Source of the DNA: Apium graveolens
Lineage: Eukaryota > Streptophyta > Magnoliopsida > Apiales > Apiaceae
Reading direction: 5' to 3'
Assembly (NCBI RefSeq): GCF_009905375.1
Contig: NC_133649.1
Location: 225,825,275-225,889,274, forward strand
Length of the DNA stretch: 64,000 nucleotides
This document shows positions 5,645 to 62,091 of the stretch, piece after piece (position 1 is the stretch's first letter; every line of letters starts with the position of its first letter). The position numbers and the translations under genes were made by a program. The notes below the pieces were generated by a model. The model made no database searches, was not told the DNA's origin, and worked only from the letters and a program-made list of their open reading frames with translations.

Positions 5645-5899
5645 CGGATCCCCAATCTGATCTCCAATATTCGCTAAAATATCATCATGTTATTGCTCCT
5701 CAACCTCAGGGTTCGGTGTCCCGCTGCCCTATACGATAATGAACCATATTACTATCATGATATTTATAAGGGTTCTTATAAGGGTTTTAACTGTCAGTAC
5801 TACGTTAGGTAGTCCGACTATGAACTTGGCAAGAGTTCTCAGTATCTTAGTGAACTTATCATTTTAATGACGCATCATCTCTGAGGTTTATAACGCTTA

Positions 5900-5911
5900 G
5901 CTCTGATACCA
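5900..5911 (-). other. Primer-binding site of element A (tRNA-iMet type)
   Basis: On the - strand this reads TGGTATCAGAGC, the complement of the 3' end of initiator methionine tRNA. It lies four bases from the LTR edge. It shows that element A is transcribed leftwards and that 5916-9830 is its 5' LTR. Confidence 0.85.
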
Positions 5912-5915
5912 TTTT

Positions 5916-5967
5916 TGTAACACCCCCAATCCAGGGTCAGGTGTAACACCCCCAAATCCGGGGTCGG
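5916..5967 (-). repeat. Tandem duplication of the LTR tip in element A
   Basis: The terminal 26 bases of the LTR (TGTAACACCCCCAATCCAGG and on, 5916-5941) are followed at once by a second, slightly diverged copy starting at 5942. The other two LTR copies have a single tip. Confidence 0.85.
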
Positions 5968-23735: not shown

Positions 23736-23775
<40 letters not shown>

Positions 23776-30114: not shown

Positions 30115-30960
30115 AAACTAGCTTTCATCTAAGATTTCATCTTTAAGCTCTTGAACATTTGGAACCCAAATTCTGCAGGAATACCTCATTATTCCCTTAT
30201 CATCTTTCTCGGTATTAATCTTTTATCTAATTGTTGGCTCTTTGCCTTCATTCATCACTTTTTCTGGCACAATATGTTCTTTTCCGATAATTCGGACTGT
30301 ATTGCAATCTCAAACATCTTTTCGGTACCGGCTCCGGTTACCTTCACTTCTATTTCCATTTTCTCAAAATCTCTCATAAACTCTCCCAAAGACATTATCA
30401 TCTTGAGTTTCTCCTTTTTACTAAGGGCATCAGCCACCACATTGGCTTTCCCCGAATGATAAAGAATCTCCCAATCAATATTCTTGATTAGCTCTAACCA
30501 CCTCCTCTGGCGTATGTTGAGCTCTTTCTACGTGAAAATGCACTAGAGCACTTATGGCTTGTGTAAATCTCGCACTTCTCTCCATACAAGTAGTGCCTCA
30601 AATCTTTAGGGCTAAACTATTGCCACGAGCCCAAGCTCATGGGTGGGGATATCGAATTTTATATTCCCTTAATTGTCTTGACCCGTACATGATTACCTTG
30701 ATGTGCTATATAAGAAGCAACTTAATTCCTTATGCGAAGCGTCACTACAGATCACAAAATCTTCTTTTCCATCCGGCAATGCCATCATAGGGGCCGTCAC
30801 CAATCTTTGTTTCAGTTCTTAAAAGCTGTTCTTGCATTTCTCTATCCATTCGAACTTCTTAGTCTTATGAGCAAGCCGCGTTAAAGGGGCTACTATCTTT
30901 ACAAACTTGAACGAACCTCTGGTAGTGACCGGCCAATCCTACCTCTGGTAGTTGCCCTAA
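30115..30960 (-). pseudogene. Element F RNase H and pre-integrase fragment, out of place
   Basis: On the - strand this reads ENSFQELK-like residues and an ALPDG...VICSDASRK-like RNase H start near 30830-30720. Then comes YHSGKANVVADALSKKEKLKMI (30470-30400) and a pre-integrase piece MRYSCRIWVPNVQELKDEIL near 30180-30120. Family assignment is firm. Its location is odd: it separates the pre-gag reading frame (30961 on) from the gag core, and the equivalent place in element A has no such block. Confidence 0.7.
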
Positions 30961-31150
30961 CCATGGTCATCAATTCCTCAGTGGTCCTTTATTCATTCTT
31001 GTCAGGATCCTTCACAGGATCTTTCTCAGCGATAATCCCTTCTAGGATAACATCCTCAACCGCTACATCCTCAATATGAACATCATCCGGTCCCGTGTTA
31101 GGACGCTCTATCGGATCCATAATCTGATCTCCAATAACTAATAAAACATC
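30961..31150 (-). pseudogene. Remnant of the pre-gag reading frame in element F
   Basis: This is homologous to codons 1 to about 60 of the 254-aa frame of element A (for example AVEDV, DPVKDPDKNE-like stretches on the - strand). It carries frameshifts and stops abruptly at about 30960, where RNase H sequence takes over. Confidence 0.6.
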
Positions 31151-31366
31151 ATCGCGTTGTTGCTCCTCAACCTCAGGGTTCGGAGTCCCGCTACCATATA
31201 CGATAACGAACTATACTTCTATCACGATATTTATAAGGGTTCCCATAAGGGTTTTAACTGTCAGTACTACGCTAGGTAGTCCGACTATGAACTTGGCATG
31301 AGTTCTTATTATCTTAGTGACCTTATTATCTTAACGTCACATCATCTCTGAGGTTTATAACGCTTC

Positions 31367-31378
31367 GCTCTGATACCA
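31367..31378 (-). other. Primer-binding site of element F (tRNA-iMet type)
   Basis: TGGTATCAGAGC on the - strand, four bases from the LTR edge at 31383, as in element A. It shows that element F runs leftwards. Confidence 0.88.
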
Positions 31379-31382
31379 TTTC

Positions 31383-33465
31383 TGTAACACCCCCAAATCT
31401 GGGGTCGGGGATCCGGGTTGTCATGAGTTCCATTTCCCTTAATAACACCCAATCTTAAAAAAACAATCAACTACTCTGTACTGTGACCCCATAATAAACA
31501 CACACACCACAAGTTATAGTCTCAGAGATGAATATCCAAAAATAACATGAGTCATTTTATTCCAAAATTATATGCCATTGCACATTAAAAGGGTTTCTGA
31601 ATAAATTTACATTTCTTTGCCATTATTACAATTGATAAAGATACATAAGATTGGTACATCAAAAGTTGAAAGCCTAGCCAATTGGTAGTTCCTACCTCAG
31701 CTACAACGACATCAACGCCTATAGGAAACTGCGGAACGTTTCCTATCCGCTCGCGAATTGGGAGCTTGGTCCCATTCATCTTGGCTATCTGATGTTGTGT
31801 GATGAAAGAAGAAAGTAAGGGTGAACAACAAGCCCACCGAAATAATATGTATAATAATTAACAATATATGAGCATTCTCATAGTACTCATGAAAGTCTTG
31901 GTCAAGAAGAAATGAACCAAGCTGATATCTTAACCCGACCAAGTCGCAAAATATTCAGTATATATATACATATATACTTTTCACAATCTTTGAAATCTTC
32001 TGACATGTATAATATACACAGAGTTCCAGTTTATAACTGTATAAAAATATCGTTGCAAGGTGATCTCATATATCTAACCTTGTCTCAACATTTTTCTGAA
32101 AATCTTTGTCATTCATAAGACAATCATTAACTAGATATAAGTTTAAAAGATGAAGTTACAAGATACTCCAATATACTTATATCTTTTCCGAATACTACTT
32201 GAACTACCACCGTTCAATGTATAAATAGTTCATCCCATAGATTAAGCTACAAGACAAAACTTGTATAGAATCAATCTTTAAAATATCATCAAAATAAAAT
32301 GAAGTTACGAGATACTTCATTTGATGCAAACATCATTTTGAAAACTTGACCCTGCCAACACTCAACAATCGCCCAACCGTAGCCTTTCTATCGAAGTGCT
32401 CTGGGTAGTGTTGCAGAAATATCCAATTGGATGATGAACTCATTACGGGAGTTTGTCGCGCCAGGAAGACCACTTACGATGATCAGTCGTAGTAGTGCAA
32501 CCCCACCATTTTCTACATGTAGAGGAGAACCTGTCGGATTTACTTGTCAACCGAACACTGGACTCCTAAGGAATGGACAGTCTTAGCGGAACTTTCGGGC
32601 CATTTGGGCCAATATAATAAGGCTGGGCCGGCGCCACTCGACCACTTACGCCACTCCTAGTTCAGATGAAATCCATGACTCTGAAACGTAAAGCTCGTTC
32701 CCCCTTTCCCCAAGTAGAAACTTGTTGATACGGCTCCACCAAGAAGTAGTATCTAGTTGGAAAGGAGAACTCACCGATATTTCCCAGGCAATGCCTGTTA
32801 ATGGATTAACTTGTTCCAAGAATTTTACTTCCCGAGTGTTGGGTAAGTAATCAAAAATTCTTTTATCAAAATAGCAACCTTGTTGTGAATATACAATACA
32901 CCACAGAGCCGGATCCCTCAGGTTTTGAGCGAGTATTTAAATCCCCTTCGAAAGGAGGATCTTAAATATAAAAATGAGTTTTGGGATCAGCTCTAACTTT
33001 TAAAATCATTTTGAAGACTCGCAAAACATTTTTAAGAATGTTTGGAGTGATGCTGATTTAATAAAATAAATCAGTCCCAATATTTTAGGAAATATCTGAA
33101 TATTATTATTTAAATAATATTATCATAAAGAATAATCTTTATAAAAATAATTGAAGTAGAAGTTTTAAAACTTATACTTGCAATGAATATTAAATAACCA
33201 AAGATATACTTATACGAAAGTACTATCTTTATTTGAATAATCAAAAGTGAGTTTGATCATCGACACATTTTTCCTTAATAAAATAAAGAATAATAATTAG
33301 TAATTAATCGAAGTCATAAGTCCTCGAATGAATATTCAAAATAATATTCATACATAAAATAAACGGAGTCATAAGCCCTCGAATGAATATTCAAAATAAT
33401 ATTCATTAATAAAATAAAGTTATCGAATAAACCTTATTTAATTCATAGTTTTAAAAACTATTCAT

Positions 33466-33497
<32 letters not shown>

Positions 33498-35255
33498 TAT
33501 ACTCGGGAGCATCGACTCCCGGTTTTAGAAAATGTTCACCTCTGGGTCCCCTATACTAAGTCGGAATTAAACCCCAGTCGCTTAAGAAACTAGACTTTAA
33601 CCATTTAGAGTCCTAACATTCGCTTTCGTGCTTAACGATTCACTTAAGTCGCTCGAGTATCCTCGGCTCCATCATTTTTAATAAATTAATCATTAAGAGT
33701 TTTAAGGCGATTCCTTTGCGAGTACCCTACCAATCGTCTAACCCACTTTACACAATTTTTTCATAATCCAATTAGTCATTTAAGGGCCTTAACCAATGTT
33801 TCAAAGTAAGGCGAGGGGTAATGGTTCGTTCGCGAAACGCCGTTACTTAAAACGGTCGTTTCTCATCGCTCGTAACTCGGATTTAGACGAACGACATATC
33901 AAAATGAAGCTCGTAACATGAACTATCTAAACATGGCAAAGGTTAGAATCTTGCAGTGAGTTCATGGGTCCTAAAGTTCAGAACAGGACTGTTAAGGAAA
34001 ATCGGGTATTATGACGGTTATGTTTACGCGATTTCCAATTTAATTATCACTCTAAATTCTCATCAACTCACTCACAACCACCAACACAACAATATTCAAC
34101 CATTATACTACAACTCAGTCCCCAACTCCAAATTTTACCAATTTATCCAACCAATCAAAGACCCAATATTCAAAACTAATATAAATCCACCAAAACTACT
34201 TATAATCAAAGATCAAGCCTTAATACTAAAAATGCTTCAATAAAACTTAATGGAATCATAAAATCAAAGCTAGGGTTTGAAGTTTATACCTTTATTGGGA
34301 GGTGTTAAGTTGCTAGGAAACCTTAGGGAGCCTCCTACAAGCTTGATCTTTCCAAAGAAATCAAGAACACAAAGTTAGGTTTTGAAGTTTCTAAAAGTCA
34401 GATTGAAAGAACTGTAAATATGAGGATTTTACCTTGCTTATTTGGAAGAGACTTATGAACAAGAGTTGTAGTCCATCTCAATACCTTTCCAACGAGCTAT
34501 AGAATACATGATTTGAGTGAGTATTGAAGGAGATATGGCAGTTTGAAGTTGCTGCTCTGGTTTTGGCCGAGAGCAAGCTTTCAAGGGGGAGAAAGTGAAA
34601 TGCTTCTTGTTTTGCCCTTTGACTAATTATGTGGTGAATTACTTGGTTGCTTCTCTTTGATTTTAATTAACCATATTTAGAATTTACCATGGTTAAAAAC
34701 ACTTGGCTAATATTCCACCAATTCAAAATATCTACTAGGTCATGCTTAGGTCATCTTGATTATGTCATCCTTTTACACTTGTTTTCTTCTTATTGGTATG
34801 ATGACATCATCACCCACTAACCTCTTTGATTAACCCCTAATTACTTGACTAATGACCGCTGATCTGTTATACGGTTCGCTTAACTTTCGTTCTCGTTTAT
34901 TGTTTGAGGTATCATACCCGAGATCTTATTACTTGGGTTCCCTTAACCTTTCTCAATACATTATATTCCTTTTATGATCCTCTCTTATAATCCTTGAATT
35001 TAAATCCTTTTAATCATGTTAATACTCAATTCTTTCGGTATCTGGTGGATTTTCGGGAAAAATCAAAGTGTTCGGATTTGGATTCTGACGATCTTTACAT
35101 ACACTTATTTATCATATAGAGTACTAATACGATCTCAGAATAATAATAAAAGAACCCCTACATAGTGTGGCATGAAAAGTTTTCTTATTCAGCATAATCA
35201 ACAAAAAGCACTATTCATAAGGGTTTCAAAAATTCCAAAATTTGGGGTTATTACA
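31383..35255 (-). mobile_element. 5' LTR of Tekay element F (3.87 kb)
   Basis: The ends are TGTAACACCCCC at 31383 and GGGGTTATTACA at 35255, followed by the CGTAT duplication. It is co-linear with 21665-25815 except for one 278-base loss: at about 33560 CTATACTAAG joins directly to TCGGAATTAAACC. In the partner LTR these are separated by 23839-24116, with TAAG at both edges. The 55-base tandem duplication is at 33309-33418. No gene was found in it. Confidence 0.93.
33309..33418. repeat. 55-base tandem duplication, second LTR of element F
   Basis: Units at 33309-33363 and 33364-33418 match those at 23581-23690 with a few substitutions. Confidence 0.88.
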
Positions 35256-36770: not shown

Positions 36771-36850
36771 TGTTGGGAATATGTTGTGAACTTGATGATT
36801 ACATTAACAAAACACCTTAGTAGATTTAACTTAGGGAAAAATATAGCACT

Positions 36851-36923
36851 CGACGGATGATCAAATATAGTCCCGACGGATGACTCAATATAGTCCCGAC
36901 GGATGATGATTTGACATCCATCG
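36851..36923. repeat. CGACGGATGA motif group 1 in LTR G
   Basis: Exact CGACGGATGA at 36851, 36874 and 36898, and a variant in the opposite orientation (ACATCCATCG) at 36914. Spacing is about 23-24 bases. Confidence 0.93.
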
Positions 36924-37109
36924 AGTGAGTAGCTTATGTAACAATAAGTATTGTAACACATTTCTGTGAACAACTTTGTATAGATCCTGTAGTAGCATAT
37001 GAGTCATGTTGACTATTATTAGATATACATAATAGGCTGATTAATTGTAAATATAAGATGTCTTGTAATTCTGCATAAGTGAAATGAAGTCAAGTGTCAA
37101 ATAGCTACC

Positions 37110-37189
37110 CGACGGATGATCAACAAAGCCACTCGACGGATGATCAACAAGGCAACCCGACGGATGACAAGCATGTACCCGACGGATGA
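37110..37189. repeat. CGACGGATGA motif group 2 in LTR G
   Basis: Exact copies start at 37110, 37134, 37158 and 37180, again spaced 22-24 bases. This is about two helical turns, placing the sites on similar faces of the DNA. The group ends about 230 bases before the LTR TATA box. In the 3' LTR three of the four have become CGGCGGATGA. Confidence 0.93.
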
Positions 37190-37417
37190 TCAATTCAAGC
37201 ATCTATTGACAGTGACAAGATAGTCACATGCGTTGGGTGTTTACAAAAGGAATGTGGGAGCCTGTTTAACAGGAAATGAAGAACAAAGAAGCATTATCAT
37301 TTCCATGTAAGTTAAGAAGATTTTCAAAGATGCCGGAATAGAGTAGTGAAGCAACGTGGAGTTTGACTTGATAGTTTTATTTTATTATCCTGTCTTATTA
37401 CCATGTAAACTTGGTGA

Positions 37418-37425
37418 TATATAAA
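37418..37425 (+). promoter_or_regulatory. LTR TATA box of element G
   Basis: TATATAAA in 'ggtgatatataaacc', 243 bases before the LTR end, is a plausible core promoter for the genomic RNA. Confidence 0.6.
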
Positions 37426-37670
37426 CCAAGTGTAGCTAGTGAAACAAATAACTAAGCAAACACTTTTAGAAGAGAAATAGAAAAAGCTGTAACTGTTAAG
37501 ATTTTCTATGTAGTTTTGATTCACTTAACTTGTTATTCTGCACCTTGCAAATCAAAACACTTATATATATAGTTTAAGTTAGAACATTTTATAGTTCAAG
37601 AAAAAGGTTACAAGAATTACATTCAACCCCCCTTTCTGTAATTCTTGCTGCATTGTTAGGGACTAACAAT

Positions 37671-37682
37671 TGGTATCAGAGC
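37671..37682 (+). other. Primer-binding site of element G (tRNA-iMet type)
   Basis: TGGTATCAGAGC, two bases after the LTR end, complements the 3' end of initiator methionine tRNA, as usual for Copia elements. Confidence 0.92.
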
Positions 37683-37728
37683 AAGCTCTTGAAGCACAAA
37701 GAGTTTAAAGATCACAACAAACAGCAAG

Positions 37729-40128
37729 ATGAACAAGAAGGATGTTGGAGTCAAGATTCCTTTTCTAGACAAAGATAATTACCATCACTGGAAGGTAAAG
37801 ATGCATCTTCATTTACTTTCTCAAGATGAGGCCTATGTGGATTGCATAGAGAGAGGTCCTCATGTACCAATGAGAGCTGCAACTGGAAATGAGCCATCAG
37901 TTCATAAACCAAGGCATGAATGGTGAGTTCCTGATATTGAACAAGTCAGGAAAGACAAGAAGGCCATGAATATTTTATTCAATGGAGTTGATGGTGAAAT
38001 GTTTGATAACATCATTAATTGCAAGACAGCCAAGGAGGTTTGGGACACCATTCAAATAATTTGTGATGGCACTGAACAAGTTAGAGAAAACAAGATGCAG
38101 TTACTAATTCAGCAATATGAGCATTTCCACTGTGAAGAAGGTGAAACTCTCACTGATATCTTTAGTAGATTTCAAAAGCTACTAAATGCTCTGAAGCTGC
38201 ATGGAAGAGTCTACCAAACCAAAGATTCTAACCTCAAATTCCTGAGATCCCTTCCAAAAGAATGGAAACCAATGACAGTCTCCTTGAGGAATTCATAAGA
38301 ATACAAGGAATTTACACTAGAGAGACTTTATGGCATTCTAAAGACTTATGAGCTTGAAATAGAGCAAGATGAAAGAATGGAGAAAGGTAGAGAGAAAGGA
38401 GGGTCCATTGCACTGGTTGCTGAGTTAGAGAAAGAGAAGGAGATGAAGATAGAAGCTGTTGAGTCCACTTCAAAGGTCTGTGAAAACAAGGGTAAGGGGC
38501 TGGTAGCAGAAAATGAAGATTTTTTGAGCCAAGATGATATGGATGATATTGATGAACATCTTGCATTTCTTTCCAGAAGATTTTCAAAGCTCAAGTTCAA
38601 GAAGAACTTTGGAGCAGCTAAGCCAAATAGAAACATGGTAGATAAATCAAAATTCAAGTGTTTCAAATGTGGCTTGGCATGGCACTTTGCCAGTAAGTGT
38701 AGAAAGTCAGATTCCAGCAAAAAGAAGTTTGAGCCTGTGGATTATAAACAAAAGTATTTTGAGTTGCTCAAACAAAAGGAAAGAGCTTTTATTACACAAG
38801 AAAATGACTCGGCAACAGATGGTTTGGATGAGGATGAAGATGTCAGCTATGTCAATCTAGCCCTAATGGTCAAGTCTGATGAAACAGAGATAAGTTCTTC
38901 AAGTAATCAGGTAATCACCACTAACCTTGCACATTTATCTAAAGCTGAGTGTAATGATGTAATAAATGACATGTCTATAGAATTATATCATTTGCGTGTT
39001 ACACTTAAGTCCCTCACTAAGGAAAATGCTAAAATCAAAGAAAATAATTTGTTTTTGAGTGAAAGGAATAATGTGCCAGAGTCTCAGTCTATTGAATTTG
39101 AAAAATTGAGAATAGAATGCAAGATTACTAAGGAGGAATTAACTGAGTCCTTGAAGAAAGAAGAAATTTTGAAGAAGCAGCTTGATCGTGAACAGGAGGT
39201 GATTAAGGCATGGAAATCATCTAGAGATGTCCATGCTCAAATCACCAAAGTTCAAGGTATTGAGTCCTTTTGTGATGCAGCCTGGAAAAAGAGTAAAGAG
39301 AAGCTGGAATCCAATTTGGTTGAAGGATTGCTAATAGATGTAGATTCGACGGATGATGAGAGTCATCCGTCGGATAATAAAAAAGGTTATCCGTCGAGTG
39401 ACATAAATCCTCATCCGTCGGCTGTGATCAAACCTGTGAGTAAAGATAAACTTGCCAAGTTAAATGAAAAATATGGATCAGTTTCCAAAAACTTTATTTC
39501 AGGAGAATCGAGTCCAGTGAAGAAGGAGAAGAAAGTGAATGTTGGTCATCTGTTCATCAAGCAATTGAATGACAGATTAGAAAAGATTGAGGTTAAAATA
39601 GAGGCTAAAAAGAAAAACAATAGAAATGGGAAAGTAGGAATTAACAAACTTAACAACTATAGACCTGATAAATATGCTCCTAGAAAAATATGTGCTAAGT
39701 GTGGTAGTGTTAATCGTCTGTCTGTTAATTACAAAATTGCCATACCTACTTCTATGACTGTACCACCTTCTTTTCCCAATATGAGTGCTATACCTTCTAT
39801 GCCTATAAATGCTATGTCTGCACAGAATATGAATGCACAATTTGCTAACATGGCATTTGTACCTAACCCTTATTATGCTGTATTTAGTATGCCTCAAATG
39901 CCACTTAGCATGCCCTACTGGAATAATATGTTTGCAAATAGCATGCCATTTTCTGTTAATCAAAATGTGCATGATAATTCTATTTTAATGTATGGTTTCA
40001 AAGGTCCAACTCAAATGACTAAGGATGAATCTGATATTCCCAAGTCAAATGAGATCAAACCTAAAAAACAAAAGAAGAAAGCTAACAAGGCTGGACCCAA
40101 GGAAACTTGGGTACTAAAATCAACTTGA
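37729..40128 (+). pseudogene. SIRE-like gag of element G
   Basis: Gag of about 800 codons in a single frame from the ATG at 37729 (MNKKDVGVKIPFLDKDNYHHW), broken only by a TGA at 37924-37926 and a TAA at 38296-38298. The second probably replaces CAA. The first third is the conserved Copia gag fold (EVWDTIQIICDGTEQVRENK, QYEHFHCEEGETLTDIFSRF). A zinc knuckle CxxCxxxxHxxxxC (CFKCGLAWHFASKC) lies at about 38660-38700. Next is a long region with coiled-coil character (LKSLTKENAKIKENN, KITKEELTESLKKEEILKK). Then comes a Ser/Asp stretch coded by four CGACGGATGA-type motifs (39347-39420), a second Cys cluster CAKCGSVNRLSVNYK with the last Cys missing, and a Met/Asn/Pro-rich tail. The length is typical of SIRE/Maximus gag. 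Confidence 0.88.
39347..39420. repeat. CGACGGATGA motifs inside gag of element G
   Basis: Exact motif at 39347-39356, then its exact complement at 39363-39372, giving a perfect 10-base inverted repeat with a 6-base loop. A variant TATCCGTCGA lies at 39389 and an exact TCATCCGTCG at 39411-39420. In the gag frame they encode STDD, HPSD, YPSS and HPSA. Confidence 0.92.
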
Positions 40129-41700
40129 TTTGATTTTAATGTGTGCAGGGAAACAGAAAGAATCTGTGGTACTTGGATAGTGGTTGTTCAAGACATATGA
40201 CTGGAGATTCTACCCTGCTCACAGAGTTCAAGGAAAGAGCTGGCCCAAGTATTACCTTTGGAAATGACAGCAAGGGTTAAACTGTGGGATATGGCTTGAT
40301 TTCAAAAGACAATGTCATTATTGAGGAGGTTGCCTTAGTGGATGGTCTCAAGCATAATTTGCTGAGTATCAGCCAGCTTTGTGACAAAGGCAATTCTGTA
40401 ACCTTCAATTCAGAAGTCTGTGTTGTGACAAACAAGAGGAGCAACAAAGTGGTTCTCACTGGAGTGAGAAAAGGAAATGTGTACCTAGCTGACTTCAACT
40501 CATCAAATGCATAATCTGTTACTTGTCTTCTCAGTAAAGCAAGTCAAGATGAAAGTTGGCTATGGCACATGAAGCTATTCCATCTAAACTTCAAGACCAT
40601 GAATGAGCTTGTAAAGAAAGAACTGGTTAGAGGTATTCCTCAAGTGGAGTTTTCTAAGGATGGACTGTGTGATGCTTGCTAAAAGGGAAAGCAAATCAAA
40701 GCATCATTCAGAAAGAAGCTTGATTCAACAATTGAAGAACCTTTGCAGCTGCTACACATGGATTTGTTTGGACCAGTCAATGTGTTGTCCATCTCAAGGA
40801 AAAGATTTTACATAGTAATTGTAGATGATTTCTCAAAGTTCTCTTCGACTTATTTCTTAAAGTCTAAAGATGAGGCTAGTGAAATCATCATCAATCACAT
40901 AAGGCAAGTCAACAATCATCCTGACTTTAAAGTTAGAAAAATCAGGAGTGACAATGGAACTGAGTTCAAGAATTCTGTCATGAGGGTTTTTTGTGAAGAG
41001 AATGGTATTATGCATGAGTTTTCAGCAGCAAGAACACCACAACAAAATGGAGTAGTAGAAAGAAAGAACAGATCACTTATTGAAGCTGCAAGGACAATGC
41101 TTGAAGAATCAAAGTTACCAACATACTTCTGGGCTGAAGCTGTAAATACTGCATGTTATACTCAGAATATTTCTTTGCTTAATCAAGCAAAATGCATGAC
41201 TCCCTACCAATTGTTCAAGAACAAGAAGCCAACTCTAAATTTTCTTCATGTCTTTTGCTGCAAATGTTATATCTTGAGAAATCAAACTGATCAAAATGGG
41301 AAGTTTAATGCTAAAGCAGATTAAGGAATTTTTGTTGGATATGCTGTTGGTAAAGCATACAGAGTCTACAATCTAAGAACCAACATTGTTATGGAATCAA
41401 TACATGTTGTGTTTGATGATAAAATGATTGTAGGACTACAAGATGGAGATTACCATGAGAGCCTCAAATATGACAATGTGGAGATGGTTAGTGATGACAG
41501 TGATGATGAAAGTGATCAGGAAACTACAACTAAGGATAGTGCAGCAAAATCTATAACCAATGAAGCTAATAACTCGACATCCATCGAGTTAAAAAAAGAC
41601 TTCATCCATCGGCAGACAATCTGCATCATCCATCGGGAGACAATCAGCTTCATCCGTCGGAACTCAAAATACACCATACGCCAGGTCATCAAAACAAGCT
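40129..41700 (+). pseudogene. Element G protease and integrase, broken
   Basis: The protease motif LDSGCSRHMTG is at about 40174-40206, in a different frame from the end of gag. A TAA at about 40278 follows. The block 40284-40514 has GLKHNLLSISQLCDKGNSV, the region before integrase. The WLWHMKLFHLNFKTMNEL zinc-binding stretch (about 40557-40610) has lost its second His to mutation, and CDAC is followed by a TAA. The integrase core 40743-41324 is open: MDLFGPV (first Asp), IRSDNGTEFKN (second), PQQNGVVERKNR (Glu), FWAEAVNTACY. It ends KAD*GIFVGYAVGKAYR, a TAA replacing a Glu codon. A further open part (41391-41570) leads into the motif-rich linker, where a frameshift occurs at an A run near 41591. 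Confidence 0.88.
41573..41660. repeat. Motif group in the integrase-RT linker of element G
   Basis: Contains the near-palindrome aactcgacatccatcgagtt, then CATCCATCGG twice and the exact complement TCATCCGTCG at 41650-41659. In the frame that joins the following pol sequence these read HPSA, HPSG and HPSE. The ORF upstream is in a different frame owing to the A-run shift. Confidence 0.85.
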
Positions 41701-41859
41701 GAAAGTCAGAATAGATCACTTACAGAAAGTTCCTCTTTCTCAAATCATAAATTCACAAACTCATGGGGAGTTTCTAATAATCAAAACTCAATCACAGATC
41801 AAGACAACAATGAGGCCTCTTCATCTAGAGTCGATCTACCTTAACAAAGAAAATGGACG

Positions 41860-43491
41860 AAGGATCACCCCTTTGAGCTCATCATTGGTGATGTATCTTC
41901 TAGAGTTCAAACAAGTAGAGCAACTCAAGAAGAATGTCTATATAAAAGTTTCCTATCTAAGGAAGAACCAAAGAAGGTAGAAGAAGCTTTGTTGGATCCT
42001 GATTGGATTTTAGCTATGTAGGAGGAGCTAAACCAATTTGAAAGGAACAATGTATGGAAGCTGGTACCCAAGCCTAAAGGAAAGAATTCAATAGACACCA
42101 AATGGGTATTCAGAAACAAGATGGATGAAAATGGCACAATAGTCAGGAACAAAGCTAGATTGGTTAGTAAGGGCTATTGTCAACAAGAAGGAATAGATTT
42201 TGATGAAACCTTTGCTCATGTTACAAGACTTGAAGCCATCAGAATTTTCTTAGCCTATGCAGCCCATGCCAATTTCAAGGTCTATCATATGGATGTCAAG
42301 AGTGCTTTTCTAAATGGAGATTTGGAGGAGGAAGTCTATGTCAGTCAGCCTCCTGGTTTTAAAGACCCAAGTCTACCTGATCATGTATACTATCTTTTGA
42401 AAGCACTCTATGGATTGAAGCAAGTACCTAGAGCCTGGTATGACACTTTGTCAAAGTTTCTTTTAGAGAATCACTTCAGTAGAGGTACTGTAGACAAAAG
42501 TTTATTCTTTAGAAATGTTAATGGCTCTAGAATACTTGTTCAAATTTATGTAGATGACATTATATTTGGCTCTACTGATGAAAAAGTTTGCAAAAAGTTT
42601 GCCAAATTGATGCAAAGTAAGTATAAAATAAGCATGATAGGAGAACTAACTTACTTTCTTAGTTTGCAAGTTAAGCAAGTTAGTGATGGAATATTCATTA
42701 GTCAAACTAAATACATTTATGATCTTTTCAAGAAGTTTGAACTAATGGATTGCACATCTGCAAAAACTCCCATGGCCACTGCAACTAAACTTGAATTAAA
42801 CTCTACTGAAAAGTCTGTGGATATTTCAAGTTATAGAGGCATGGTTGGCTCACTTCTATACTTAACAGCTAGTAGGCCAGATAAAATGTTTGTTACATGC
42901 CTTTGTGCTAGATTTCAGGCTGACCCTAGAGAATCTCATTTAATTGCTATAAAGAGAATTTTTAGATATTTCAAAGGTACACCAAAACTTGGCATTTGGT
43001 ACCCTAGAGATTCTGGTTTTGATCTAACTGGTTATTTAGATGCAGATTATGTAGGTTGTAGAATTGATAGAAAAAGTACAACAAGAACCTGTCAATTTCT
43101 AGGAAACAAGCTTGTGTCCTGGTTCAGTAAAAAGCAAAATTCAGTTTCTACATCTACAGCAGAAGCTAAATATATTGCTGCTGGCAGTTGCCGTGCACAG
43201 ATTTTATGGATGAAAAACCAATTGCTAGACTATGGTCTGCAAGTGGAAAGAATTCCTATTTTATGTGATAATACAAGTGCAATTGCCATCACTGAGAATT
43301 CAGTACAGCATTCAAGAACAAAGCACATAGACATCAAGTACCACTTCATAAGGGAACATATAATGAATGATACTATGGAACTATATTTTGTTCCAAGTGA
43401 AAAACAACTTGCAGATATATTTACCAAGCCACTGGATGAATCCACCTTTTCAAGGTTGGTAAGTGAGTTAGGTATGCTTAATTACTCTTGA
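41860..43491 (+). pseudogene. Element G reverse transcriptase and RNase H, one stop near the RT start
   Basis: RT starts in the EEALLDPDWILAM region (about 41975-42020), where a TAG replaces a Gln codon. From 42121 it is open for 456 codons to the natural end [13 protein letters not shown] motifs in order are [56 protein letters not shown], and the catalytic [12 protein letters not shown]. RNase H begins [16 protein letters not shown]. The later motif reads [10 protein letters not shown] where family members have EAEY, so one acidic residue is Lys. Then come [26 protein letters not shown] in pieces and ADIFTKPLD. This is the best preserved pol segment in the window and is typical SIRE. Confidence 0.9.
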
Positions 43492-43585
43492 ATCTTTTCA
43501 GATATTTTGCAAGTTGTAATGCAGCCAGAAATTTAATTGATTTTCAGTCCTGGATGAAGTTTTGGCTAAGTCAAAATTTACATCC

Positions 43586-43790
43586 CGACGGATGATCATT
43601 ATCCATCGAGTTTGATCATCCATCGGAATATAATTTGTTAATAAAATCAATTAAGTTTCTAGAATTTTTATAACTCGACGGATAACTGTCTTTCCTCATC
43701 CATCGAATTGTCTAAATCTTAGCCGTTAATTTTCTGAACATTATCCATCGAGTATACTTACAGTTTGAAAGCATAACACGATGGATAATT
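43586..43790. repeat. CGACGGATGA motif group upstream of the internal TATA box of G
   Basis: One exact copy is at 43586-43595. At least six one- or two-base variants follow: tatccatcga near 43600, tcatccatcg near 43615, cgacggataa at 43676, tcatccatcga near 43697, tatccatcga near 43743, and cgatggataa near 43780. Both orientations occur. The group sits between the pol stop and the internal TATA box, which is about 100-300 bases downstream. Confidence 0.88.
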
Positions 43791-43891
43791 GATGGAATTT
43801 TTATAGTTTATCGTTTTAAACGGCTATTTTGGGCAATTTTTATTGGTCACTTTATTTTACTTTATTATTTTTGATAGTTTTTCTTTGGGGA

Positions 43892-43899
43892 TATAAAAG
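43892..43899 (+). promoter_or_regulatory. Candidate internal TATA box before the post-pol gene of G
   Basis: TATAAAAG lies 118 bases before the ATG at 44010. The intervening leader is CT-rich (tctttctttctc, tctctctctctg) like many plant 5' UTRs, and the ATG context AACAATGGC is the favoured plant form. Together these suggest a separate transcript. Confidence 0.6.
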
Positions 43900-44009
43900 C
43901 AGAATTTATTTTCATCTCTTTTCTTTTATCATTCTCAATTCATCTGCTCTAGCTTCTTTCTTTCTCAAAAGCAATTACCCTCTCTCTCTGCAATTTGTAC
44001 TCTCTAACA

Positions 44010-44747
44010 ATGGCACCAGTCGTCAAAATCATGTCCCAAACTGGCTTGATCTATGAGAAGAACAATTTCACGGCTCTAGTGAATAAGGGGATTCAACAGT
44101 CCGGAGACTACCACAAAATGATGGATTTTGTGCAAGGCTGTAAGCTCAATTATGCCATGCTAGAGTCTCCCACTATCTACTGTGAGGTTGTGGAGGAAAT
44201 ATGGACGACTGCAGTGTACAACTCAACTGACAAGACCAACACTTTCACTATTAAAGGTAAGGAATTTCGTGTTAATAGTGACATTGTTAAAGCATATTTT
44301 AGGATTCCTGATAATACTATTTCTACTCCACACACAGACACTGATATTGTTAACATGTTAAACTCCATGGGTTATGCACTCACCATCTCTAAATTAAGTG
44401 AAATTAGGAGATTGGGTCTTAGGAAAGAATGGAGTTTCCTGTGTGATGTAGTTACTAAAGTATTTTCTGGAAAAATTAGCAACTTTGATCCTGTTAATAT
44501 CTCCATGCTCAACATGCTTTACATGCTAGTAACTAATAAATACTTCAATTTTAGTGATCTAGTCTTGTTTGAGTTGGGGTTTAAGTTAGGAGAGCTTAAT
44601 AAGAGAGGTAAGAGTGTTTATTATGCTAGATTTTTCATGATGCTTGCTAACCACCTCTCTGAGGACATTGTACTTGAGAACCCAACCAACAAGTTAAACT
44701 GTTGGGTTCAAGAGAGATCCAGTAATGGAGGCACCTCAGGTAAGTGA
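44010..44747 (+). CDS. Post-pol accessory gene of element G, N-terminal domain
   Basis: I chose the ATG at 44010 for its AACAATGGC context. The open frame has 245 codons (MAPVVKIMSQTGLIYEKNNF) and ends at a TGA. Residues ~20-230 look like one folded domain: MDFVQGCKLNYAMLESPTIY, EIWTTAVYNS, IKGKEFRVNSDIVKAYFRIP, NMLNSMGYALTISKL, LRKEWSFLCDVVTKVFSGK, MLNMLYMLVTNKYFNFSDLV, YYARFFMMLANHL. Similar regions follow pol in SIRE-like Copia elements of other eudicots; that is from memory of the family. The function is not established; env-like is the usual label but I see no signal peptide or membrane segment. The TGA probably ends an originally longer frame, as related protein sequence continues downstream. 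Confidence 0.75.
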   Translation: MAPVVKIMSQTGLIYEKNNFTALVNKGIQQSGDYHKMMDFVQGCKLNYAMLESPTIYCEVVEEIWTTAVYNSTDKTNTFTIKGKEFRVNSDIVKAYFRIPDNTISTPHTDTDIVNMLNSMGYALTISKLSEIRRLGLRKEWSFLCDVVTKVFSGKISNFDPVNISMLNMLYMLVTNKYFNFSDLVLFELGFKLGELNKRGKSVYYARFFMMLANHLSEDIVLENPTNKLNCWVQERSSNGGTSGK

Positions 44748-46185
44748 GGTAATTTCAACTATCCCTACTCTTCCAACCTCAAACACTTCTTTGCCTTCTA
44801 GTATAGCAGTGGCATCTGTGTCAATGACCAGACAGATGCCTACCTAAGCTACCAAAACCAAAGTTTCAAAACCAAAGACAAAGAAAGCCCCATCTGGTGT
44901 CTCTAAAAAGATGCCAGTTGTAAAATCCACTAAACACAAAGAGGGGAGTGTGAAGGTGGGAAAGTCAGGTGAGGGACAGGGTGAAAATCAAAGAAGCCCT
45001 AAGGATAAGGATAGTGAGCATAGTGTACCCAAACCAAGCCACACCACAGTTTCCCAACAAACTGGGGTTGTTAATAAGGATAAAAGCTCAATTCTAGTTT
45101 CATCCTCCCAAAAAAATGTAACTAATTAAACAAGCTCTCAACCAGGAGCATTGAATAAAAGGAGTAGGGATACAAGTTCACCACAAACCTACACAAGAAA
45201 GAAGAAAACTAAGACCTTTGGGGATGCACAGGGTACACACACAGTGCAAACTGGAGCTAAAGACCCAGTCACTGCACCATCTTAAAGTCAAATTGATGTG
45301 GCTCTAACAAATGTGGAGTCACACCCAAAATCTGTACAAATTGAAACACCACAAACTCTAAATTCTCCCACACACTCTTTGGATGTTGACATGATTTAAA
45401 CATGACAACCATATTCTCCATCTTTAATTTTGTTGGAGAAGCCAAAAATCCATGCAAGTGAGCATCATCTTCTAGATGATTTGTTGACTCACTTGCCATT
45501 TCTTTCGGAGACTGTTGAGACATTTGTGCCAAAATTTTCATAAATCTGCACAGAGTCTACAATAGTCTCCACTCCAAACTCATTCATTTCTTCTTACTCG
45601 ATGGATATTGTTCATCCGTCGAGTAGTGATTGTATCCCGACGAATGTGCCTAACAGCAGTCATCCGTCGGATAGTCAAATTACTAACCCGATGGATATTT
45701 CTTATCCGTCGGGTGTCTCTGCACAACTTCAAAGTTCAACTATAGTTACAAGTGCATATGACTTAGTAATTGTGTAATCACTATTAGGATTGAGGGAATG
45801 TAGTGACTTGAGTGACAGTCTGGGTTGCTCCCAGGAAAAAGGGGAGAAAAAGAGTGATCCAATGCAGTCCATTTCTTCAGGACTAGCAAAAGTGAGTGTG
45901 AGGAGTCCCACCTTAGATGGTGAATGTGAGGGTCTGAGGGTGGGGAGCCAAGGTGAGACCTTGATGCAAGAAAAGAGAGATAATGAGAGAAATACAGGTA
46001 CTTGAGATATAAGGGTGAATGTCATTGTAAGTGAGTTAATGAATGTCCAGGATGCAAACAGGGAGGGACTATCTCAGCAAACTCAAGTTGTTATAGATTC
46101 CACCTCCTTAGATGCTGAGACATTTACTCACCCTATTTTAGCCTATCAATTTCTAGCTGGATAGGGTAATGACAATGCAGAGAGA
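44748..46185 (+). pseudogene. Post-pol accessory gene of G, Ser/Thr/Lys-rich middle, broken
   Basis: A low-complexity continuation of the accessory frame, low in hydrophobic residues, with stops about every 200-300 bases. Readable pieces include KKMPVVKSTKHKEGSVKVGKS (44911 on) and TRKKKTKTFGDAQGTHTVQT (about 45200). A region at 45597-45712 is where CGACGGATGA-type motifs encode HPSS, HPSD and YPSG. A 71-codon piece follows at 45790-46005 (LSDSLGCSQEKGEKKSD). At least six stops or shifts are present. It looks like an unstructured linker between the N-terminal domain and the coiled-coil part. Confidence 0.6.
45599..45712. repeat. CGACGGATGA-type motifs inside the accessory gene of G
   Basis: Exact complements TCATCCGTCG are at 45612-45621 and 45660-45669. 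Variants are CGATGGATAT at 45599 and near 45689, CGACGAATG near 45638, and TATCCGTCGG near 45703. All read in the same frame as HPS/YPS or MDI/PTN. Confidence 0.9.
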
Positions 46186-46896
46186 ATGCTCAATTTGGTG
46201 CACACCACACAGTCAATGCAAAGAACTAAGGATGCCATCACAGCTTTGCACTCAATAGCTGGTGATGTTGATTATGAGACTGGTGGCTCAGAAGAATTCT
46301 TTGGAGGTGAGGGTGGAGATAGTGAAGAAAAGTCATTGGACATAGTGGGAGAAGTAGGCCATAGTTCTAGATCAAGCATGCCATCATGGGACTTCTCCAA
46401 AAACTCTGATGATCACCATTTCAAGACCACACTCATCCAACTTATCAGCCAAACACAGTCTGCACTTCAATCAACCACAAATGCTAGCACAAAGAATCTT
46501 CTGCAAGCACATCTTCCTTCTCTCCAACTACAACAAATCTCTGGCTACCAACAAAGTCAAAATGTCTCCATCATCAAAAATGAAGTTGATCAACTTAAGA
46601 AAGACATCTCTAACAAGTTGGAAGCTAAACTTCCAGAAGCCACAATGCTTGACATCAAAAGACATCTCAGGAAAAAATCTGATTTTGCAACCAAGGTGGA
46701 TTCCTTGGACAAAAAAATGGTTGATGTGGAAGCTTCTCTTACAGCAATCCATCTACACCAAGCTCAACAAACAGACTTACTTCAGAAACTGGTGGCTGCA
46801 CAGACCTCCTCCTCTACTCAACTTGCTGATAACAAAAAGGGGAGAAAGAGAGTTCTAGGAGTGAGGGGGAGCAAAAAGTGCTTAACATTCAAGTGA
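46186..46896 (+). pseudogene. Post-pol accessory gene of G, coiled-coil segment
   Basis: Open 236-codon frame: an acidic Gly-rich start (EEFFGGEGGDSEEKSL), then SRSSMPSWDFSKNSDDHHFK, and a helical region with heptad-like spacing (SIIKNEVDQLKKDISNKLEAKL, KVDSLDKKMVDVEASLTAIH, QTDLLQKLVAAQ). This suggests oligomerisation. A related but clearly diverged version lies inverted at 49476-50016, so the segment is maintained in the family. It joins the next segment by a frameshift near 46850. Confidence 0.65.
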
Positions 46897-47513
46897 GTAA
46901 AGCAATTATGCCAACAATTGCTTTCACAAAGCCACCAGCTAAAGATAGCATTGATCTAATAAATGAAGCAGCAGCCACTTTGAGAGCAGCTGAGAAGAAG
47001 CAGTTTAGTCCAATCAACTGGGAGAAAATTGATGAGATTATTCAAAAGAAATTTGGTCTAGCAAAGAAGCCAGAAAAATTAGCCATTCATCACTCTCAAG
47101 TCAGGAAAATTTCTATGAATGATATGAGCATCAACTATCTGGAAAGAGGCCAAACATCCTGCATCAAATCCCCAAAGGCAGATTTAATCATGAAGCCAAA
47201 GGTGAACTATCCAAAATCTTCAATAAAGAACCCTTTGGACACAGTGTATGAGACACCAAAGCCTGATGTGAAGAAGCTGTTGGCCAGGTCTATAATATTA
47301 TACAAAGATCCTGCAGATTCAATTCTAAAGAGGAGAACTGCCAAGATTTTCAGAAATGGAAAGGAAATTTGTGTGGTGGCTGGACACCCTCAATTTGTTG
47401 AAGCAAAAAGGGAAGAAAAGGCCAAATTGAAGCAAGAAAAGAAGCAAGCTGCTCTAGATGCCAAAAAGCTCAAAAAAAAGAAGGAGCAAGCTGCTATCTT
47501 GGCCAAGTTGTAA
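46878..47513 (+). pseudogene. Post-pol accessory gene of G, basic C-terminal segment 1
   Basis: Open 211-codon frame: TIAFTKPPAKDSIDLINEAA, FSPINWEKIDEIIQKKFGLAKKP, KKLLARSIILYKDPAD, RRTAKIFRNGKEICVVAGHP, then a strongly basic helical end (KAKLKQEKKQAALDAKKLKK). A nuclear localisation or nucleic-acid contact role is possible from composition, but no named domain is recognised. Confidence 0.6.
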
Positions 47514-47516
47514 GCT

Positions 47517-48442
47517 GTGAAACCCTGACAACAAATTTCTGCTCAACCATCTGTAATTGTTGAATCTCAAGATCAAGTAGTGCAAGATGAACCTCCACAG
47601 ACAAAGAAACCAAGGTACAAGCAAAGAATCAAGAGAATATTGGATTTTAGTGATGAGGAGATGGAAGACTACCTTCCCAAAGAGTCTACTTCTATAACAA
47701 CTCAAACATCCATGCCCTCTGTGGCACATGAAGAATTTAAGATAGATACATCCAAGAATTTCCATGGAGAACCTATCATTCCAAAGGATGAGCCAATAGA
47801 CTGGGATAGTCTACCAATTCCTGAACTCAATCTACCTCATTTTATGAAGCCAAAGAAAACAAAAACCAGAGCAGTCAAGAAAGTGAAGCCCTCAACTCTC
47901 AGATCCAAGTCCATAACCAAAGCTCAAACCAAGGTCAACAAGGGAGATATCATGTACATATGTGACATCAAGGAATTCTCCGATCTAAACCTCTATCTAG
48001 ATGAACTGGAAGAAGTTAGAGGGATTGATGCTTACAGAAATCTACTGAAAGGTTATTATTCAAGTACAAGGGAGGAAAAAAGATATCATGGCCACTTCAC
48101 AGGATTCTTTAAGAGAGCGAATCTGTACTGATAAAAGTTTATTCATCCTTCAAAAAGAACTTTGGATTCAATGTGACAGCTAAAAGATTAGTTCTAAAGA
48201 AGATTGAAGAACTAAGGAGTATTAGAGCCAAAGATGAACTCCTAAAGACTTTAACTATTCCTTACACAGGGAGTAGAGTGCATCTAAGGCCCTACTGGCT
48301 GATGGAATTCATGGATGATAAGGGAGTTAAAAGAATCTTCAGATTAGAAGACCAATTGAGCATCTCTAGCAATGAGACTATTCTGGAAATGCAAGAAATG
48401 CTAGATCTCTCAGAATCTGATGAACTTGAATTCCACAGATAG
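47517..48442 (+). pseudogene. Post-pol accessory gene of G, C-terminal segment 2
   Basis: 47580-48131 is open: KKPRYKQRIKRILDFSDEEM, EPIIPKDEPIDWDSLPIPEL, a basic stretch TRAVKKVKPSTLRSKSITKA, then a compact end (DIMYICDIKEFSDLNLYLDEL, YRNLLKGYYSSTREEKRYHG). A frameshift leads to 48173-48442 (RLVLKKIEELRSIRAKDELL, RPYWLMEFMDDKGVKRIFRL), which ends at 48440-48442. If all segments were once one protein it would be about 1,480 residues. I do not recognise a family. Confidence 0.55.
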
Positions 48443-48715
48443 CTCCAAAATCAAATAGAAGAAAACAACAGGAGGCTTGTGAAGAAATCCAGACAATCAA
48501 GGAAATAGATCAATTTGCTCATACTAGAGGAGCACCTTAAAAATGATTGTGAGCAAATCTTTGTACACTTTGTCTTGTAAATTTTTAAGTAAATAATGCA
48601 GCACTTTTTAGTTTTATCTACTACATTTTAAATCTGTATTTTTAGGGTGTTTTGTTATCATCAAGTTTCTCTTAATTTATGGCTACAATTCTAGTAGGAA
48701 TAAATTCGGGGAGAC
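48443..48715 (+). other. 3' untranslated part and polypurine tract of G
   Basis: AT-rich, no coding content. It ends in the polypurine tract TTCGGGGAGAC (48705-48715), directly before the LTR. Confidence 0.7.
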
Positions 48716-49475
48716 TGTTGGGAATATGTTGTGAACTTGATGATTACATTAACAAAACATCTTAGTAGATTTAACTTAGTGAAAAATGTAGCACTCGACG
48801 GATGATCAAATATAGTCCCGACGGATGACTCAATATAGTCCCGACGGATGATGATTTTATATCCATCGAGTGAGTAGCTTATGTAACAATAAGTATTGTA
48901 ACACATTTCCGTGAACAACTTTGTATAGATCCTGTAGTAGCATATGAGTCATGTTGACTATTATTAGATATGTAGAATAGGCTAATTAATTGTAAATATA
49001 AGATGTCTTGTAATTCTGCATAAGTGAAATGAAGTCAAGTGTCAAAAAGCTACCCGGCGGATGATCAACAAAGCTACCCGGCGGATGATCAACAAGGCAA
49101 CCCAACGGATGACAAGCATGTACCCGGCGGATGATCAATTCAAGCATCTATTGACAGTGACAAGACAGTCACATGCGTTGGGTGTTTACAAAAGGAATGT
49201 GGGAGCCTGTTTAATAGGAAATGAATAACAAAGAAGCATTACCATTTCCATGCAAGTTAAGAAGATTTTCAAAGATGCTGGAATAGAGTAGTGAAGCAGC
49301 GTGGAGTTTGAATTGATAGTTTTATTTTATTATCCTGTCTTTTTACCATGTAAACTTGGTGATATATAAACCAAGTGTAGCTAGTGAAACTGATAAATAA
49401 GCAAACACTTTTAGAAGAGAAACAGAAAAAGCTGTAATTGTTAAGAATTTCTCTGTAGTTTGTTTGTTCACTTGT
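48716..49475 (+). mobile_element. 3' LTR of element G, truncated
   Basis: Matches 36771 to about 37520 of the 5' LTR, with scattered substitutions, including CGACGG to CGGCGG in three of four group-2 motifs. Exact motifs remain at 48796, 48819 and 48842. Similarity fades at about 49465-49485, losing the last 140 bases or so of the LTR, where an inverted SIRE fragment begins. No target duplication can therefore be tested. Confidence 0.88.
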
Positions 49476-50016
49476 AAAGCATCAGTCTTGAGTCCAATGC
49501 CTCAACCTTTCTATTTAAGTCGGTTTCCTTCCTGAGTTTCTGGTGAATGTGTCTATTTATTGACTCAGGAAGTTTGTACTACATTCTTTCATTGAGGTCC
49601 TTTTTAACTTTCTCAATAGTGTTCTTGATTTCATCCACATCTTGACTTTTTTTGAGAGTCTGAATTTTGTGTAGTTGCAGAGATTCAAGATGGGCTTGTA
49701 GAAGACTTTGGGTACTGACATTGGTGGTAGCTTGGATGGCTTTTTGAGTCTGATGATTGAGTTTGAACGGTGTGGATTTGAAGTGATGATCACTGCAATT
49801 TTTGGTGAACATCCAGGATGGAGTATTTGTTGATGAGCTAGGTCCTGCATCTCCCCCTATGTTCATGCCAGTTTCATCAGCATCTTCTCCATGAGAATCA
49901 TCACCAAAAGAATCACCAAAATCAAACTCAAAATCATCACCAGCTGAAGGTGGAAGAGAGTTGATTGCATCCTTTTCCCTTTGCATAAAGGTTGTAGTGT
50001 GTGTTGTGTAAGACAT
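49476..50016 (-). pseudogene. Accessory-gene fragment of a second SIRE-like element, inverted
   Basis: On the - strand 50016-49579 is open (145 codons): TTTFMQREKDAINSLPPSAG, an acidic block (FGDSFGDDSHGEDADETG), TPSWMFTKNCSDHHFKSTPF, NVSTQSLLQAHLESLQLHKI. It aligns along its length with the coiled-coil segment of element G (46186 on). Below 49579 the alignment continues in a broken frame (LPESINRHIHQKLRKETDLN, VEALDS). It ends at the junction with the 3' LTR of G. Confidence 0.75.
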
Positions 50017-54594: not shown

Positions 54595-55918
54595 TGTAAG
54601 TCATATGTCATAGCCTATTTGTATATTCGAGGATTCAACTCAACTCAAATAAGAATGTAATAAGTAAATAGTAGATCTACCGTCAAGAGAGATCTCGCAA
54701 AGTAATATATGTCAAAGGATTCAGAAACAAGGTTCATCTACAGACTTGAGGAGTTAATTCACTGGAAGAAGTTCAAGAAGTTGATCATGCCTCAGTGATA
54801 TAAATCAAGATCGTGGATTTAATCAAGTGACAGAGATCTCGTCAGAGTATCATTAATTACAAGGATTTAATCTGAAGAAAATCAAAGTGTCAAAGTCAAG
54901 ACATGAAGAAACGTCACGGAAGTTAGTCACTCATGAACCAGACAGTACATCGAGTGTCAACATTGAAGTGGTGGAATTGATTCATAATTTTCAGTGATTT
55001 TCAGAAGATTTGCAGAAAGATGGGTGCTGTTGAAGACTAGAATTAATTCTCTATTAATTAATTAAGTCATCTAATTTAATTAAGAAAATAAATTATATCT
55101 GCGAAGAATAATTTATTTATTAATTGAATTAATTGAATTAATTGATTAATTAATTCTGAATTAATTTTAGGAATTTTCAGAATTTAAATTGGATTAAAAT
55201 TCATTTAAATTCAGCAAGTCAAACTGATTGTACTAGTATGACAATCGGTATGACAATCAATAGTCATACCGAAAGTCATGCTAGTACAAACAATAGTCTC
55301 ACCGAAAGTTACACTGGGAGGAGGATTGTCTTGCTAGTTCATTCTGATTGTCTTGCTAGTTCATTCTGATAGTCTTCCTAGTTCATTTAATTGTCATACC
55401 GAAAGTCTTGCTGAGCTCAAGATTGTCATTCCAGTTCAATTCAATTCTGTTGAATGAATTAAAAAGAAACAGAAGCAGCAAAAAGCATAATCATCAAATA
55501 CACAAGTCAAACAATCAAGAACAGAGCAGCCGCAGCAAACATTTTATTCTTCTCTGCAACTTCAAGATCAATTTCTAGTTTGTAATGTTAAATCTAATCA
55601 ACTAGAAATCATTCTCTTGTTCTTGTGTAACAATCTAGCGGATCAAAATCCCTAGAACTTAATCTCAAATTGCGTTTAGCATTTGAATCTTTTTATTACA
55701 AAAATAGAAAAAGTTCATGTCGAATTTATTCTAGATTTGTGATAATTAATTTGAGATTAATTCCTTGTAATCGATACAGTTGTTGTAACACCTTTCAAGT
55801 TTAATAATATTTTTATTTAACTTGAATTTTGTTTCACATTTTTTATTCCGCATTTAATTTGATTATTCGGTACTGTTTGTATTCAACCCCCCTTCTACAA
55901 ACACATTGGGACCTAACA
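54595..55918 (+). mobile_element. 5' LTR of SIRE-like element K (1.32 kb)
   Basis: Starts TGTAAGTCATATGTC and ends GGGACCTAACA, just before the primer-binding site. Its partner at 60772-62086 is nearly identical by eye: two differences in the first 140 bases, one 9-base indel in an AATTGAATT run, and a few other substitutions. It contains a 22-base tandem repeat. Confidence 0.95.
55324..55389 (+). repeat. 22-base tandem repeat in LTR K
   Basis: Three units of attgtcttgctagttcattctg at 55324, 55346 and 55368, the third diverged. Around them (55215-55440) are further related strings: GTCATACCGAAAGTC twice and GTCTCACCGAAAGTT once. The whole block is repeated in the 3' LTR at 61493-61558. Confidence 0.9.
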
Positions 55919-55920
55919 AT

Positions 55921-62086: not shown

Positions 62087-62091
62087 ACGCG
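62087..62091. repeat. Target site duplication, right copy (ACGCG) of element K
   Basis: Pairs with 54590-54594. Confidence 0.93.

Follow-up and report, generated by a model that had tools for sequence, protein, structure and literature searches.

Introduction

Why should one retrotransposon carry the same short DNA word in its terminal repeats, in its genes and in the spacer between them? The question is raised by a stretch of 64,000 nucleotides of celery DNA (Apium graveolens, contig NC_133649.1, positions 225,825,275 to 225,889,274), which was analyzed as a whole and is called the window below. Within the window lies a Copia-type element, here named G, that spans positions 36771-49475. The initial annotation described a 10-base word, CGACGGATGA, scattered through G, and guessed that a protein encoded by the element binds its own dispersed sites, as VANC proteins do in VANDAL transposons. 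In this study, the word was examined in G, in related copies and in the celery genome, and the results somewhat favor the view that G is a Copia retrotransposon of Sirevirus-like type that carries a self-recognition system specific to its family.

Results

All of the 17 exact copies claimed for the 10-mer were found in the window, within 36851-48851, and every one of them is inside G (one start, given as 36898, is in fact 36897). The number is indeed far above chance, with an expectation of 0.02 for the window and no instance of 17 in 100 shuffles, and the copies in the long terminal repeat (LTR) follow the reported spacing of 22-24 bases, with steps of 23, 23 and of 24, 24, 22. Sites with at most one mismatch number 28 in the window against 1.22 expected, and 28 of 28 are in G; 11 of these are one-base variants, one fewer than the "at least a dozen" first noted. 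For the 8-base core CGACGGAT, at most one mismatch gives 40 sites in G and 8 elsewhere in the window, and the commonest core variant in G is CGATGGAT. In the whole genome (3.33 Gb, 4,849 contigs), the 10-mer occurs 196,595 times (98,659 + 97,936) and the reversed word 742 times (406 + 336). The genome counts also covered CGATGGATGA (29,704 against 1,238 reversed) and TTTCAACGGATGA (11,965 against 43 reversed); further CpG variants of the box are CAACGGATGA, CGACAGATGA and TGACGGATGA. As far as they were run, both checks proposed with the initial annotation, the genome-wide count and the search for clusters in related copies, turned out in its favor. The seven copies of the 10-mer in a kiwifruit paper (PMC8585034) lie in NAC coding sequences, as codons for PTDE, and are unrelated.

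The box CGAYGGAT occurs 32 times in G, at five kinds of place: the LTRs (eight in the 5' LTR and four in the 3' LTR, the latter with four additional boxes each one base off), gag (four), the integrase-reverse transcriptase (RT) region (four), the linker between pol and the accessory open reading frame (ORF) (seven) and the accessory region (five). The gaps between clusters are 1.8-2.2 kb from the 5' LTR through the accessory region, followed by 3.1 kb to the 3' LTR. On the plus strand, the 5' LTR holds a first sub-cluster of three forward boxes and one inverted CGATGGAT box (36851-36923) and a second of four forward boxes (37110-37189), approximately 230-310 bases upstream of a TATA-like site at 37418. 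The coding cluster in gag (39347-39420, plus strand) has one forward and three inverted boxes. The integrase-RT cluster (41579-41660, minus strand) has four inverted boxes in steps of 24-25 bases and, in L010 and L012, falls inside an open pol frame. The linker cluster (43586-43786, plus strand) contains seven boxes in both orientations, and the accessory-region cluster (45599-45711, plus strand) contains five CGAYGGAT boxes and one variant in alternating orientation, inside the open accessory frame in L010, L012, L020 and L059/L060. The sub-clusters of the 3' LTR lie at 48796-48868 and 49055-49134 (plus strand), the second being composed of the four boxes one base off, three CGGCGGAT and one CAACGGAT. 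An identical A-to-G difference distinguishes 49057, 49081 and 49127 in the 3' LTR from 37112, 37136 and 37182 in the 5' LTR, affecting three of the four boxes of the second sub-cluster; conversion between boxes or recombination between copies is a possible cause.

Twelve stretches of contig 1, selected for holding the motif, all align to G (longest matches 73-89% identical) and carry boxes at the matching places wherever the respective part of the element is present. Moreover, ten gag loci obtained with the protein query P0087 (10 of its 317 matches), and hence selected by protein and not by motif, each contain two or more matches to C[AG]A[CT]GGAT. The box columns were more conserved than spacers and flanks in the alignments of the LTR (14 sequences), gag (9) and linker (5); they were not above the flanks at integrase-RT, where box number varies, or at the accessory cluster, in alignments of 6 sequences each. 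In the gag and accessory frames, the box is read as STD when forward and as H/Y-P-S when reversed, and in pol it is read in another frame. In 15 copies (G and the loci with the anchoring peptide, duplicates dropped and L001-L008 excluded; the copies are related and the counts non-independent), the proline of the gag boxes was encoded by CCG in 33 of 39 cases against 7 of 311 within the 250 residues around, serine by TCG in 28 of 32 against 19 of 624, and threonine by ACG in 12 of 19 against 5 of 329. When codons were shuffled among like residues in the gag ORF of G, the mean was 0.16 boxes, and the observed four were never reached in 10,000 shuffles. The boxes inside gag are under constraint at the DNA level.

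The consensus of 193 pooled sites from 13 sequences (G and L009-L020) was W-C-Y-CGAYGGAT-R-A, with an asymmetric logo, and the box is mostly non-palindromic. The inverted repeat ATCCG-N-CGGAT, which had been regarded as the extended form of the motif and likened to the site of a dimeric protein, occurs at two places only in G (39365 and 45662) and does not represent the box in general. The dyad reading of a single box is not supported, the position that would need T being C in 75% and T in 16% of the 193 sites. Among the one-mismatch variants in the 13 sequences, C4 to T was counted 52 times, C1 to T 8 times, G2 to A 4 times and G5 to A 14 times, and the equivalent changes of the reversed word 0, 3, 4 and 0 times, respectively (the copies are related, so a p value from these counts is not literal). 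Plain decay of methylated CpG predicts approximately equal counts; therefore, position 4 of the box seems, from the sequences, to accept C or T. In addition, the observed/expected ratio of CpG was 0.21 in G versus 0.63 in the remaining window, and 52 of the 90 CpGs of G fall in the 256 box bases.

The gag proteins of other families have HPL where the G type has HPS, which suggested a box TCAACGGAT, and the HPL-type gag loci of the celery genome do carry it. The same word was also found in the upstream LTR-like arrays of three such loci (L031/L026, L032/L030 and L033/L027). A genome search with the gag protein P0041 found 109 matches. The loci L051-L058 were made from the best 8, and seven of the loci are almost the same in gag and have therefore spread recently. 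In these recently spread members of a sister clade, the box of the second family (family B) is TCAAYGGAT at all five places. Box counts were tabulated for 19 sequences (L010 and L037, lacking an exact primer binding site (PBS), have no row). The family-A rows contain A boxes only, with G having 8 in the LTR, 4 in gag and 4 at integrase-RT, the single exception being a B box in the L019 LTR. L051-L058 have zero A boxes in the counted parts; L051 has 12 B boxes in the LTR, 4 in gag and 2 at integrase-RT, and L058 has no B box at integrase-RT, where its piece ends. L059/L060, downstream of L051/L052, carry 7 B boxes in the linker, 6 in the late accessory part and no A boxes, and their accessory ORFs are open for at least 645 and at least 631 amino acids. 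In a tree of a box-free gag piece, family B was a single clade with support 1.000 (the tree used the 25 of 31 sequences whose match was sufficiently long), which indicated one switch, though at all five clusters. The exceptions to the split are CGAYGGAT in the B pieces L026, L029 and L031, and TCAACGGAT in the A loci L023 and L024. When 8 upstream pieces were compared with their own gag type, 5 agreed, L034 and L036 were boxless, and L035 had A boxes beside a B gag. Gag with STD/HQL would be predicted to go with a box CAACTGAT; the P0041 query, chosen for this prediction, led in the celery genome to family B and its box TCAACGGAT, and the collections of genome contigs and viral contigs yielded no relative of P0041.

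The B boxes of the linker and accessory parts of L059 (1101-1246 and 3218-3324, oriented) are mostly arranged as inverted pairs, with a distance of 16 bases in four pairs, in contrast to the direct arrays of the LTR. These pairs are possibly a dimer arrangement.

The accessory ("env-like") ORF of G begins with a domain (43995-44747, plus strand) that is predicted to adopt a VANC21-like fold. Its similarity to Transposase_32 (PF20167) is weak, with an E value of 0.011 that does not reach the cut-off; at E <= 0.1, the similarity is seen in 7 of 37 homologues. No DUF1985 was detected in the accessory ORF by Pfam scans, and the hhalign probability was 0.3%; the sequence profile of the domain gave 4 matches in PDB, with E values of 0.38 or worse and none of them VANC21; and nothing was found at E <= 0.001 in a viral structure library or in two PDB searches. 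The initial guess of a VANC-type self-binding protein is partly supported, by the DNA-level selection on the boxes and by the fold prediction; no sequence homology to VANC or DUF1985 was found. The later accessory ORFs gave matches to VitD-bind_III (E 0.00058) and Myb_DNA-bind_3 (E 0.42), which were rejected as below the Pfam cut-offs. DUF1985 itself has 52 matches in the celery genome, several in open frames, and VANC-type genes may coexist there with retrotransposon accessory proteins.

The remaining features of G are all on the plus strand. The 5' LTR (36771-37668) is followed by a Copia gag domain (PF14223) in a separate ORF fragment (37966-38298) and a C-terminal gag ORF of 583 amino acids (38377-40128). 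The top ten of its 99 homologues are all from Apium graveolens, the first being 88% identical, and proteins from Heracleum and Daucus come after them. An integrase core fragment (PF00665, 40743-41324) and an RT ORF (PF07727, 42121-43491) come next, and three more accessory ORFs within 46186-48131 (46186-46896, 46878-47513 and 47580-48131) match no family above cut-off. The 3' LTR (48716-49475) is truncated at its 3' end and differs from the 5' LTR by 35 substitutions in 756 aligned bases. It stops at 49475, and a minus-strand ORF follows at 49579-50016 (side region 49475-50016), which by eye looks like the G ORF at 46186-46896; a truncation or a nested junction would be conceivable. Two Apiaceae-type accessory and gag proteins, P0128 and P0041, are filed under Klebsiella pneumoniae and Rhizophagus irregularis records, which are probably plant contamination. 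Elsewhere in the window, direct repeats of approximately 1.3 kb (54595-55919 and 60772-62087, 98% identical) with short repeated words of their own, ATGAACTAG and ACCGAAAGT, are probably the LTRs of another element. Long duplicated stretches (5464-6893, 21665-25815 and 30930-35255) are 86-97% alike, and the latter two contain repeated words around AATATTCATT.

Discussion

The codon bias, the indifference to frame and orientation, and the concerted switch at five places point to a single double-stranded-DNA reader for each family, and the boxes are very probably read by a sequence-specific DNA reader. In the mechanism proposed here, boxes of the form WCYCGAYGGATRA would be the sites of one such reader, with the clusters spaced so that the whole element sits within reach of one. 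Binding to double-stranded DNA would explain the two orientations, the differing frames, the dispersed places and the joint switch. The reader would be the protein of the accessory ORF that adjoins the linker cluster and whose first domain has the predicted VANC21 fold, an assignment that is slightly likelier than not. It would account for a change of reader from family to family inside one host. By analogy with VANC in VANDAL, its binding might keep the element's own copies unsilenced or transcribable, and this anti-silencing outcome is put forward tentatively. The complete proposal, namely that a Sirevirus-like env-like gene encodes a structural relative of VANC that reads family boxes throughout the element, coding regions included, and lifts the silencing of its own family only, is plausible, with the balance lying a little against it.

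A possible but rather unlikely alternative is that a host transcription factor binds the boxes and drives the LTR and an internal promoter of the accessory gene, a role that Bousios et al. suggested for the repeated motifs of Sireviruses (PMC2829016). The LTR boxes upstream of the TATA-like site and the linker boxes just before the accessory ORF are consistent with this role. However, boxes are also present in gag, integrase-RT and the late accessory ORF, where promoters are unexpected, and a joint change of the clusters between families in one host would need two factors or a change that spares the other family.

It is improbable that the boxes are hairpin or small-RNA signals, with inverted pairs that fold back and feed silencing. 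Inverted neighbors do occur in the linker and accessory clusters, strikingly paired in family B, and the palindrome-rich LTR regions of maize Sireviruses are small-RNA hotspots; however, direct repeats predominate in the LTR arrays, all boxes of the integrase-RT cluster of G point the same way, and complementarity would suffice, without a fixed sequence common to all clusters. Still less probable are functionless minisatellite-like expansions copied around the element. Box number does differ among copies, often in 24-base units, such as at integrase-RT and gag in L012, but only approximately 13 bases are common to the clusters, the spacers differ, and selection is needed for the codon bias, the concerted switch and the CpGs that persist in an element otherwise poor in them. 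An action in RNA, for packaging or Gag binding, is very improbable: although several clusters lie within the genomic RNA, both orientations are present at all but one of the five kinds of place in G, and an RNA reader would not treat them alike. Selection of the repeat in the protein, as the STD/HPS repeats of gag, is hardly credible despite a peptide pattern kept in many relatives, as it is contradicted by the rare codon use, by the pol cluster, which reads the same DNA in another frame (SSVG in the last box of G), and by the LTR and linker boxes outside gag.

If the complete proposal is correct, the enigmatic env-like gene and the long-unexplained Sirevirus boxes would be the halves of one anti-silencing system, common to DNA transposons and retrotransposons by descent or capture. 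The finding offers a concrete gene-site pair, with two families in one genome that differ by the same change at five places. The function of the env-like gene in plant retroelements was unproven and controversial, and no Sirevirus box-binding factor was identified, as of 2010, according to the available parts of PMC2829016. Sireviruses constitute approximately 21% of the maize genome (PMC3599292), and an anti-silencing system in them would matter for epigenetics and genome size. Boxes in the LTR and linker had been described before (Bousios 2010, PMC2829016); novelty seems to lie in the boxes within coding sequence, the concerted switch and the candidate reader. No link between Sireviruses and VANC was found among the titles and abstract openings listed in searches of the open-access literature. 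Three papers contain both terms, and one of them, PMC13317346, names the two separately in its available part.

The boxes of G resemble the RM boxes of Sireviruses (Bousios et al. 2010, PMC2829016), which are likewise high-copy, CpG-bearing and family-specific, and which occupy the linker that precedes the env-like gene as well as the LTR part upstream of the TATA box; two elements have added copies at the env start. Among the box-bearing Sireviruses of the published set, linker boxes occur only if an env-like gene is present (PMC2829016). The RM motifs are palindromic and, with one exception, built on a CGG-CCG core, whereas the box of G is mostly asymmetric and ATCCGNCGGAT occurs twice in G. 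Table 3 of PMC2829016 tallies LTR, linker and env-start copies; the coding clusters in gag and integrase-RT, the codon-level constraint and the candidate reader are found in G but not in the available parts of that paper. Of the Sirevirus signatures, G has the 5' LTR/PBS junction CA/ATTGG/TATCAGAGC (CAATTGGTATCAGAGC at 37667), the C-rich integrase signal (a C6 run at 37627, approximately 40 bases before the LTR end) and boxes in the LTR and before the env-like gene. In place of the terminal polypurine tract (PPT) AGGGGGAG followed by AT before the 3' LTR, it has TCGGGGAG followed by AC at 48706, and in place of several identical linker PPT octamers it has one exact AGGGGGAG, at 46864. G is called Sirevirus-like here and is not filed as a member of the genus, its Copia RT being assigned through the PF07727 match.

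Athila is not a Copia element. Its aORF (PMC11728184) is, as in G, a 3' accessory ORF of unknown function with PF20167-type similarity; unlike for G, neither a box system nor VANC kinship is reported for it in the available parts of that source. The CG methylation of sunflower SIRE elements drops dramatically between the LTRs (PMC12844716), which is compatible with an anti-silencing role and may have other causes.

VANC of the Arabidopsis VANDAL elements (Hosaka et al. 2017, PMC5735166) is a protein encoded by a transposable element whose motif, YAGTATTAY, stands in tandem repeats through its own element, as the boxes do in G; it binds these motifs and removes methylation. Related VANDAL families have different motifs and the motif has a C/T variant position, which again resembles G (PMC5735166). 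However, VANDALs are DNA transposons with the motif mainly in non-coding sequence (PMC5735166), whereas G belongs to the Copia retrotransposons and has part of its boxes in coding sequence. VANC is encoded by Mutator-like elements of the VANDAL type, and G has Copia gag, integrase and RT. Kinship of its accessory protein with VANC is suggested by the predicted fold alone, and the arrangement of the motif, repeated through its own element, fits that of the VANC system.
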